A stretch of DNA of 64,000 nucleotides from Alphaproteobacteria bacterium (lineage in GTDB: Bacteria; Pseudomonadota; Alphaproteobacteria; UBA9219; RFNS01), in NCBI GenBank assembly GCA_016124955.1, contig WGMR01000006.1:1-64000 (forward strand). The letters are read 5' to 3'. The position numbers were made by a program, and so were the translations under genes. Of this stretch, positions 46,472-50,186 are shown one piece after another; position 1 is the stretch's first letter, and each line of letters opens with the position of its first letter. The notes beneath the pieces are model-generated. The model was given only the letters and a program-made list of their open reading frames with translations, was not told the origin of the DNA and did no database searches.

Positions 46472-47302
46472 ATGGGCACGGGTGCAGAGGCTTATGGCGA
46501 TCTCATGCACGCTTCTCTAGCGGGAGGCAAAACAGACGCACACCCATATTCAAACACAGCCCCATGCCATCCGAACATCACAAGCCATCTGCGCCGCACG
46601 CGCGAGGCAATTACCGGACGCGAGGAGCTTACGGTCGGCAGCCTGTTCGACATACTGCCGCTGCAAACCGGGATCCAGCTTCTGACCATTATCCTCGGCA
46701 CTATCGCTTTCTTCGTGCAATTCCCGGGCGTGGGCCAATTAGCCGGCGGCATTTTGCTGGCGCTTTTCTGGGCAGCCTTCAGGGGGCAGAAAGGTTTGCC
46801 GAAATCCATCAGGAACAAAAAATTGCCGGTGGAAACCACTGTTGCCGTTCTGCAAAAACTGGAAGACTTTTTCTCGATTTTCGAAAAAGGGCCGGGCGAA
46901 GAGCGCGCCGGACCCGGCAAACGCGTTTTTTATAATGACAAGCTGCTTGATGCGTTCTCAATCCTCATGGCGGCGGGCATCCTTGTGCCTGTTCCCGGCA
47001 CGGCGCTCGCCTGTTCGCTGCCGCTCGTGCTGGTGGCGACCGGCCGTTTGTGGAAAAACAACGCGCTTATAACTGTCGGGCTCGCCAGCCTGCCTTTCAC
47101 GGGCTTTGCCGCCTATCACCTGACCAGTATGCTGTTCGCCGCAGCGACCGGCCCGGCCGGAATGTTCTTTGCCGCCGCAGCAGCCGGCCTGACGGGCTAT
47201 TACTTATGGAACCGAAGCCGCAAGCAAACCGCACCCACAGCGCCACGCAGCGGCAGGCGCCCGGCAGCCACAAGCACACTTGCAGTTGCCGCGCTTTCGT
47301 AA
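46472..47302 (+). CDS. Divergent ExoD-like integral membrane protein
   Basis: 276 residues from ATG 46472; ATG 46505 (MHASLAGGK) is a possible shorter start. The ExoD signature appears in weakened form: ITGREELTVGSLFDILPLQTGIQLLTIILG, a region where RGxGxxLLxxAL is replaced, then LLDAFSILMAAGILVPVPGTALACSLPLVLVATGRL, equivalent to the second half of the family. About five membrane helices. ExoD in Sinorhizobium affects exopolysaccharide; its biochemical role is unsettled. A more typical ExoD is at 62251-62886. The upstream 128 bp are AT-rich with no clear ribosome-binding site. Confidence 0.65.
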   Translation: MGTGAEAYGDLMHASLAGGKTDAHPYSNTAPCHPNITSHLRRTREAITGREELTVGSLFDILPLQTGIQLLTIILGTIAFFVQFPGVGQLAGGILLALFWAAFRGQKGLPKSIRNKKLPVETTVAVLQKLEDFFSIFEKGPGEERAGPGKRVFYNDKLLDAFSILMAAGILVPVPGTALACSLPLVLVATGRLWKNNALITVGLASLPFTGFAAYHLTSMLFAAATGPAGMFFAAAAAGLTGYYLWNRSRKQTAPTAPRSGRRPAATSTLAVAALS

Positions 47303-47344
47303 CGGCGGCTGACCCGGCTATATTCCTGTGATAGGCTTGCGCCC

Positions 47345-47695
47345 ATGACCCGCCAGACAGCGCGGCACGCGACGCGCCGCATAATCATCCTGATCCTGCT
47401 TGCACTGAGCGCGCCGCCTGCCCGCGCCGACGTGCCGGGCATGACGATCGCGCTGCGCAACCACGAATTCGTGCCCGCCGTGATCGAAGTGCCCGCGGGC
47501 GTGGCTATCGCCTTGCATATCGTGAACGAAGACACGCTGCCGGAAAAATTCCGCAGCCATGAAATGGACCGCGAGCTTGTCGTGCCCGGCAACAGTGTCG
47601 GCACACTGGTGATCGGGCCATTGCGGCGAGGGGTTTATATGTTTTTCGGCGAATATCACGCCAAGACCGCGCAGGGTAAAATATTCGCGCGCTAA
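47345..47695 (+). CDS. Periplasmic cupredoxin-domain protein 1 (FtrB-like)
   Basis: 116 residues with a signal peptide (IIILILLALSAPPARA). The mature part is a small cupredoxin: MTIALRNHEFVPAVIEVPAGVAI, IVNEDTLPEKFRSHEMDRE and VVPGNSVGTLVIGPLRRG. The blue-copper Cys ligand is missing, as in the EfeO/FtrB group, where His and acidic/Met residues may bind iron or copper instead. Homologous to the next gene but upstream of the iron-type operators, so it may have a separate promoter. Likely works with the FTR1 permease at 48213. Confidence 0.8.
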   Translation: MTRQTARHATRRIIILILLALSAPPARADVPGMTIALRNHEFVPAVIEVPAGVAIALHIVNEDTLPEKFRSHEMDRELVVPGNSVGTLVIGPLRRGVYMFFGEYHAKTAQGKIFAR

Positions 47696-47762
47696 TAACC
47701 GCGCATCAGAATAAAATTCATATTTTTCAATATATTAGACGGCAACATCCTAATATTGATAT

Positions 47763-47777
47763 TAAGAACAATTCTCA
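47763..47777. promoter_or_regulatory. Operator O1, TAAGAA-N3-TTCTCA
   Basis: Near-perfect inverted repeat (one mismatch) centred 30 bp upstream of the perfect copy O2. On the minus strand the region reads ATAATGAGAATTGTTCTT, which matches the Fur consensus in most positions. The GAA-N3-TTC core also fits the alphaproteobacterial Irr box. Confidence 0.5.
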
Positions 47778-47785
47778 TTATTTGC

Positions 47786-47814
47786 TTGCCGCTAAGAATA
47801 GTTCTTATTATATT
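47786..47814 (+). promoter_or_regulatory. Predicted promoter of cupredoxin 2-FTR1
   Basis: TTGCCG (47786-47791), 17 bp, TATATT (47809-47814). The spacer contains operator O2. Start expected near 47821, 31 nt before the cupredoxin ATG at 47852. Confidence 0.5.
47793..47807. promoter_or_regulatory. Operator O2, TAAGAA-N3-TTCTTA, in promoter spacer
   Basis: Perfect inverted repeat lying entirely between the -35 and -10 hexamers, so an occupied site would block RNA polymerase. Its centre is 30 bp, about three helix turns, from O1, placing both on the same DNA face. An iron-responsive repressor (Fur or Irr type) is the likely reader given the iron permease downstream. Confidence 0.55.
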
Positions 47815-47851
47815 CACGGCCTGCTCTCATCTGCTGGGAAAGAACACATCC

Positions 47852-48187
47852 ATGACACGCTTTGCTTCCGCTTTTCTGCTTGGCCTTTTCGCGCTTGCTG
47901 CACCGGCCGCGCATGCCGAAACGCCGACCTTCACCCTCACCATCAAGGACCATAAGTTCGAGCCAGCCACGCCTGAAGTTCCGGCTGGCGAAAAGGTCAA
48001 ACTCAGCATCGTCAACAACGACCCGACGGCCGAGGAATTCGAAAGCCACAAGCTGAACCGCGAGAAGGTCATCCCCGGCAACAGCACGGGCACGGTTTTT
48101 ATCGGCCCGCTCGAGCCCGGCAGCTATCCTTTCGTTGGCGAGTTCAACGAAGATACGGCCAAGGGCACGATTATTGCAAAACAATAA
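47852..48187 (+). CDS. Periplasmic cupredoxin-domain protein 2 (FtrB-like)
   Basis: 111 residues with a signal peptide (AFLLGLFALAAPAAHA). Cupredoxin core: FTLTIKDHKFEPATPEVPAGEKV, IVNNDPTAEEFESHKLNRE, VIPGNSTGTVFIGPLEPGSYPF and VGEFNEDTAKG. It aligns with protein 1 along its whole length, with no Cys copper ligand. In FtrABCD systems of Bordetella and Brucella a cupredoxin (FtrB) hands oxidised iron to the FTR1 permease (FtrC). The promoter and paired operators directly precede this gene, and the FTR1 gene follows 25 bp downstream. Confidence 0.85.
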   Translation: MTRFASAFLLGLFALAAPAAHAETPTFTLTIKDHKFEPATPEVPAGEKVKLSIVNNDPTAEEFESHKLNREKVIPGNSTGTVFIGPLEPGSYPFVGEFNEDTAKGTIIAKQ

Positions 48188-48212
48188 AAACCGTTCGGGG
48201 AGTTCTTGAAGA

Positions 48213-49043
48213 ATGTTTGCTGCGGGCCTGATTGTTTTTCGCGAAGTGCTTGAAGCTGCGCTGATCATCAGCGTGGTGATGGCGGCGACGCGTGGCGTGG
48301 CCATGCGCGGGCGCTGGGTGCTTGGCGGCATATGCGGCGGCGTGGCGGGCGCCGGGCTGGTCGCATTGCTGGCGCGCGCCATCGCGGGCATGGCCGAAGG
48401 CACCGGGCAGGAGCTTATGAACGCCGGCATCCTGTTCACCGCCGTCGGGCTTTTGACATGGCATATCGTATGGATGAACAGCCACGGGCGCGAGCTTGCG
48501 GCAAAGATCAAATCCATCGGCCACGAGGTAAGCATCGGCACGCGGCATCTTTCGGTGCTGGCTGTCGTGGTCGGGCTTGCGCTGATGCGCGAGGGGGCCG
48601 AGATCGTGTTGCTGCTGCAAGGTCTTGCGTTTAACAGCACACCGCTTGAGATTGCCGGCAGCCTTGCGGGCGGCATCGTCGCCGGTTCGGCGGCGGGCTG
48701 GATGATATATGCGGGCTTCAGCCTGATCCCCACGGGGCGCATGTTCACCATGACAAATTGGCTTTTGCTGCTTATCGCGGCCGGCATGGCGGCGCGCGGC
48801 GCTAATTTCCTCGTGCAGGCGGATGTTCTGCCGGCGCTCGGCGATACCGTTTGGGATACGAGCCATATTCTGGCCGAGAACAGCGCACTGGGCGAATTGC
48901 TGGCCACGCTGGTAGGCTATATCGCGCGCCCGAGCGGCATCCAGATCCTGTTTTATGCGATGACGGTTGGCGTGATTATCGCGCTTGCGCGCGGCGTTCG
49001 CCGCAAAATCGCCGGTACAGCCAGTTTGATAGCCGCCGAATAG
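48213..49043 (+). CDS. FTR1-family high-affinity iron permease
   Basis: 276 residues with seven hydrophobic helices. The two REXXE iron-exchange motifs are visible: IVFREVLEAALI in helix 1 and LALMREGAEIVLLL in helix 4. FTR1 permeases carry Fe3+ through the inner membrane, coupled to oxidation by a periplasmic partner. Here the partner role probably falls to the cupredoxins, since no EfeB peroxidase, P19 protein or polyferredoxin (FtrD) is present nearby. Ends with a basic cytoplasmic tail. Convergent with obg, 3 bp apart. Confidence 0.93.
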   Translation: MFAAGLIVFREVLEAALIISVVMAATRGVAMRGRWVLGGICGGVAGAGLVALLARAIAGMAEGTGQELMNAGILFTAVGLLTWHIVWMNSHGRELAAKIKSIGHEVSIGTRHLSVLAVVVGLALMREGAEIVLLLQGLAFNSTPLEIAGSLAGGIVAGSAAGWMIYAGFSLIPTGRMFTMTNWLLLLIAAGMAARGANFLVQADVLPALGDTVWDTSHILAENSALGELLATLVGYIARPSGIQILFYAMTVGVIIALARGVRRKIAGTASLIAAE

Positions 49044-49046
49044 CCC

Positions 49047-50186
49047 CTAGTTTTTTTTACGCCGCACGACAGGCTTCTTTTTCGTTCTTCCTGCCACTTT
49101 GCGCGGCTTGGCCCCGGCAAGCTTTGGTTTGGGCGCCTTCGTCTTACCCGCCTTCATCTTCACTGCGCGACGGCGCGGCGTTCCTTCCGGCTTGCGGATC
49201 AGGTTCCACAGCACGCGCAGCAATTCCGGCACGCCGGTGCGCGCGACCGCCGAAATGTCATAAACCCTTTTCTTGCTCGCGCGCGCCAGCGCAGCTTTTT
49301 TCTTTTTTATTTCGGCTGGCGTCAGCGCATCGCACTTATTGAGCGCGATTATTTCCCGCTTCGCCGCAAGCCCGTGGCCGTAGGCCTTGAGTTCGCGCCG
49401 GATCACGCGGTAAGCATCCGCAACATCATCGGCCGTGCCATCAACCAGGTGCAGCAGCACGCGCGTACGTTCGACATGGCCAAGGAAACGATCGCCAAGC
49501 CCCTGCCCCGCATGCGCGCCTTCGATCAGGCCGGGAATGTCGGCGAGCACAAATTCGAGCGCGTCATCGCCTTGCCCGGTACGCACGACGCCCAGATTGG
49601 GCGCAAGCGTTGTAAAGGGGTAATCGGCGATCTTCGGCCGCGCGGCGGTGCAAGACGCGAGGAAGGTGGATTTGCCGGCGTTGGGAAGCCCCACAAGCCC
49701 GGCATCGGCGATCAGCTTGAGCCGCAGCCAGATCGTTGCCGCCGTGCCCGGCCAGCCGGGGGTAAATTTGCGCGGCGCCTGATTGGTGGCGGATTTGTAA
49801 TGCATGTTGCCGAAACCGCCGTCGCCGCCCTTGTACAGGATAAGGCGCTGGCCCACCTCCGTCATGTCGGCGATCACGGTTTCCTGGTCTTCTTCGAGTA
49901 CCTGCGTGCCAACCGGCACACGCAGCACCAGATCAGCACCATCCTGCCCGGTGCGGTGACGGCCCATGCCGTGCAGGCCATTCTTGGCTTCGAAATGCTG
50001 TTTGTAGCGATAATCGATCAACGTGTTCAGGTTATTGGCGGCTTCCACCACCACATCGCCGCCACGACCGCCATTGCCGCCATCGGGCCCGCCGAAGGCA
50101 ACGAACTTTTCACGGCGGAAGCTGACGCTACCGGGACCGCCATTGCCGCTTCTGACATGGATGCGCGCGAGATCAAGGAATTTCAT
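49047..50186 (-). CDS. obg: GTPase ObgE/CgtA
   Basis: 379 residues. Glycine-rich Obg fold ([31 protein letters not shown]), then G domain: G1 GLPNAGKST, switch and G3 [13 protein letters not shown]4 ALNKCD. The C-terminal 50 residues are a Lys/Pro/Ala tail ([20 protein letters not shown]) instead of the acidic OCT domain of some species. Assists 50S assembly and links growth to ppGpp. Usually near rplU-rpmA in alphaproteobacteria, but 33 kb away here. Start ATG 50186; the next gene upstream is 37 bp away. Confidence 0.96.

Follow-up and report, generated by a model that had tools for sequence, protein, structure and literature searches.

A double Fur-type operator on the predicted promoter of a cupredoxin-FTR1 iron-permease operon in a small-genome alphaproteobacterium

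A 64,000-nucleotide stretch of an alphaproteobacterial genome (hereafter the window) carries two nearly identical inverted repeats, O1 and O2, ahead of a cupredoxin gene and an FTR1 iron-permease gene, and the question raised by this locus is which regulator reads them. The bases and positions given in an earlier note for the two operators and for the two promoter hexamers are correct base for base (Table 1), and so is its description of O1 as a copy of O2 with one mismatch, placed 30 bp upstream (centres at 47770 and 47800). As the note also had it, O2 lies wholly within the 17-bp spacer of the TTGCCG/TATATT promoter (47786-47814). The further claim that both operators share the same helical face holds roughly but not exactly, because 30 bp corresponds to approximately 2.9 helical turns and would place two dimers on nearly the same face. 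TTGCCG/TATATT is the sole sigma-70-like promoter in positions 47200-49200, where shuffling predicts 0.5 such pairs, and the promoter by itself is therefore weak evidence; its -35 hexamer is a poor match.

Table 1. Operators, promoter elements and genes of the locus, in window coordinates
Feature	Position	Strand	Details
O1, upstream Fur box TAAGAACAATTCTCA	47763-47777	.	7-1-7; Fur matrix 22.7 bits, Irr matrix 13.2
-35-like hexamer TTGCCG	47786-47791	+	4/6 to consensus
O2, Fur box TAAGAATAGTTCTTA	47793-47807	.	Fur matrix 22.2 bits, Irr matrix 13.2
-10-like hexamer TATATT	47809-47814	+	5/6 to consensus; spacer 17 bp
EfeO/FtrB-type periplasmic cupredoxin, operon gene 1	47852-48187	+	PF13473 Cupredoxin_1 9e-33; Brucella FtrB 8VUK 6.6e-14
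FTR1/EfeU/FtrC-type iron permease, operon gene 2	48213-49043	+	PF03239 FTR1 5e-28; both REXXE motifs

The identity of the downstream genes, a cupredoxin and an FTR1 permease, is confirmed by their Pfam matches. In the permease, the REXXE residues R10, E11 and E14 and R126, E127 and E130 are invariant, as expected of an FTR1 family member. The operon resembles the EfeUOB, FtrABCD and cupredoxin-EfeU importers, in which an FTR1 permease is co-encoded with an EfeO/FtrB-type cupredoxin (e.g., Brucella FtrB-FtrC, PMC11966278; Leptospirillum cupredoxin-EfeU, PMC2631029), but it consists of two genes only, and no FtrA/P19 partner turned up in the whole genome. Just upstream on the same strand (47345-47695), outside the Fur promoter, lies the gene of another cupredoxin of this type, which shares 49% identity with that of the operon. 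A genome search with the FeoB_N model alone returned only apparent generic GTPases; FeoB is thus probably absent from the genome, and FTR1 may rank among the main routes of ferrous-iron import in the host.

In a scan of the 64-kb window with a Fur matrix derived from boxes at FTR1 promoters of other genomes, O1 and O2 are the two best Fur-type sites and the third scores 5.7 bits, which gives the pair a lead of 16 bits over the rest of the window, a margin to be read with the caveat that the training sites had been selected on a core which is present in O1 and O2 as well. No further Fur-type site above 6 bits was found in the window with this matrix. Moreover, when the AT-rich promoter stretch (47700-47850) was resampled 20,000 times with a Markov model, a single site of this quality arose in 0.055% of the resamples and two never did, which excludes a chance origin of O1 and O2. 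The earlier reading of two iron-type operators at the promoter of a cupredoxin-FTR1 iron-uptake operon is thus supported, and they probably serve a repressor.

Both operators qualify as Fur boxes, with two mismatches in O1 and three in O2 to the 7-1-7 inverted repeat TGAKAATNATTMTCA. With the proteobacterial Fur box (GATAATGATAATCATTATC; in 7-1-7 form, TGATAATNATTATCA), whose repressor is Fur, they share symmetry and core, the ATTCTCA half-site, overlap with a promoter, an iron-uptake target and the presence of Fur in the genome. The ATTCTCA half-site is the right half of O1 and equals the Fur consensus, and TTATT continues from it; the overlap consists of O2 in the -35/-10 spacer with the cupredoxin and FTR1 genes downstream. 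The differences are that the left halves of O1 and O2 carry A instead of G at position 2 and that the right half of O2 ends in TTA, and both variants are common at FTR1 promoters. In fact, Fur boxes with the TAAGAA half-site are common at cupredoxin-FTR1 promoters across proteobacteria (TAAGAATGATTATCA, TAAGAATCATTCTCA, TAAGAACAATTATCA), and this half-site occurs in 6 of 19 FTR1 sites matched by core, which leaves the earlier suggestion of a distinct regulator or a variant site unsupported. A new regulator with TAAGAA-N3-TTCTTA as its own consensus (or RirA) could draw on the exact 12-base motif being unique in the genome, with O2 as its only perfect match. Nevertheless, a regulon of a single site is implausible, the nearest other matches are Fur boxes and related FTR1 promoters carry plain Fur boxes, so that a distinct regulator was rejected and is scarcely conceivable here. 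RirA itself was not found in the genome: the one Rrf2 protein encoded there classifies as a SUF regulator (132 bits, cut-off 110.65) and reaches 62.9 with the RirA model, whose cut-off is 193, and a RirA operator was rejected on this ground.

The earlier note had let its reading depend on conservation of the inverted repeats in related genomes, and the Fur box does recur at the cupredoxin-FTR1 operon. Of 74 FTR1 loci whose upstream DNA was long enough, 32 carry a Fur box with at most two mismatches ahead of FTR1, against 0.45 expected from shuffling, and more than half have none at this threshold. Several genomes of the same order also have a Fur box there (L025, L029, L034, L036). Most of these boxes lie 360-490 bp before FTR1, i.e., near the start of the cupredoxin gene. 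Four loci have paired boxes 24-28 bp apart (L046, 27 bp; L092 and L116, 28 bp; L106, 24 bp). Also, 8 of 19 boxes have a hexamer with at least 5/6 identity to TTGACA 6-17 bp upstream, which places the box in the spacer, against 1.3 expected. A Fur box between -35 and -10 has been described for tonB of Gluconacetobacter diazotrophicus (PMC9368920). Some FTR1 loci that lack a Fur box, in Rhizobiales and elsewhere (L085, L086, L096, L101, L115), instead have Irr-like palindromes, for example TTGGAATAATTCAAG or ATGGAATTATTCTAT, most of them some 400 bp ahead of FTR1, and Irr has possibly replaced Fur there.

The host genome (1.93 Mb in 11 contigs) encodes three Fur-family proteins. The first, Fur (G000:C10, L016), has as its nearest match the Fur of Magnetospirillum gryphiswaldense MSR-1 (4RAY/4RAZ, 5e-56). 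It keeps K15, Y56 and R57, residues that contact DNA in the MSR-1 Fur structure (PMC4506495), so that a Fur that should be able to read the site is present. The second is a true IrrA (183.8 bits against an NCBIfam cut-off of 150), and the third is Zur-like and adjoins genes resembling a znu-type zinc-uptake system.

Since an IrrA is encoded and O1 and O2 contain the GAA-N3-TTC core of the Irr box, or ICE (TTAGAAN3TTCTAA in the host order), IrrA might bind both operators and repress or activate the operon at low iron. The two sites are also the top two of the window for an Irr matrix, but at 13.2 bits they stand against 27.5-29.6 for the Irr boxes of the genome itself. The perfect TTAGAAN3TTCTAA occurs twice in this genome, before ahpC (beside irr) and before dps, and it also precedes ahpC or dps in several relatives; O1 and O2 differ from these boxes both in target and at positions 2 and 14. 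To discriminate between the classes, upstream regions were searched by the shared core with positions 1, 2, 14 and 15 left free. The 87 FTR1 regions yielded 19 sites, all of them with a purine (G or A) at position 2 and a pyrimidine (C or T) at position 14, although not all are independent (L025 and L042 have the same flanking DNA; L106 and L109 are nearly alike). In contrast, all nine Irr boxes found before ahpC and dps carry T at position 2 and A at position 14; a tenth match to the core there (L170) belongs to neither class. O1 (A/C) and O2 (A/T), which have neither T at 2 nor A at 14, belong with the FTR1 class. Moreover, FTR1 promoters seldom contain an ICE match with at most two mismatches (6 of 74 loci, 1.45 expected), several of these matches double as Fur boxes, and Irr is reported to repress at low iron (PMC3413700), the wrong direction for an importer. 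On positions 2 and 14 Irr was rejected as the regulator of O1 and O2, its control of the operon being very unlikely overall, and the link to the Irr box drawn in the earlier note finds no support in this comparison.

The same positions bear on a dual control in which Fur represses at high iron and Irr weakly binds the shared GAA-N3-TTC core, resulting in antagonism. Both proteins are encoded, their cores overlap and the sites score positively with both matrices; however, the objections to Irr alone apply here too, and the FTR1 boxes of relatives have no Irr-specific bases, which makes this arrangement highly improbable. It is just as doubtful that the box with A at position 2 is a compromise of Fur and Irr half-sites for which both regulators compete as one operator; if it were, it would integrate free iron with haem-linked iron status.

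Genome-wide pattern searches brought up further Fur-type sites outside the reach of the matrix scan, which covered the window. O1 and O2 score about 2-4 bits lower than four other scored Fur-type sites of the same genome. A perfect Fur box, TGATAATTATTATCA, lies between sdhE-like and recG-like genes (L019, G000:C3:247368-247382), where iron control would not be expected. At L020 (G000:C2:2910-2987), a pair of Fur boxes 63 bp apart encloses a stretch resembling a promoter, ahead of a gene for a porin-like outer-membrane protein that has no match in Pfam or NCBIfam. Overlapping Fur boxes with an offset of 6 precede the gene of a 639-residue protein (L022, G000:C5:135797-135817), likewise with no match in Pfam or NCBIfam, and this gene is flanked by two small genes that seem related to each other.

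Judged from its sequence, the O1/O2 region is very probably a standard Fur-repressed promoter that serves the cupredoxin-FTR1 operon. Both boxes, hexamers resembling a promoter, a Fur gene with the DNA-contact residues and the recurrence of Fur boxes ahead of this operon in other genomes are seen directly, and we infer Fur binding, repression, cooperation between O1 and O2 and the way in which expression follows iron. With iron in sufficient supply, metal-loaded Fur (L016) would bind O2, between the -35 and -10 hexamers, and Fur on O1, just upstream, would extend the complex in the upstream direction. Fur on O2 would cover the promoter and keep RNA polymerase off, and when iron becomes scarce Fur would leave and the ferrous-iron importer would be made. 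Two boxes about three turns apart would probably make repression steeper.

Because many other bacteria carry such a site ahead of this operon, the find, though real, is ordinary, and O1/O2 is a fine example of a familiar mode of control. In all, the comparison of sites indicates that the Fur and Irr boxes of the host order can be cleanly told apart by two positions despite their common core, and it would make Fur the regulator of a simple ferrous-iron importer, made up of two genes, in an alphaproteobacterium with a small genome.
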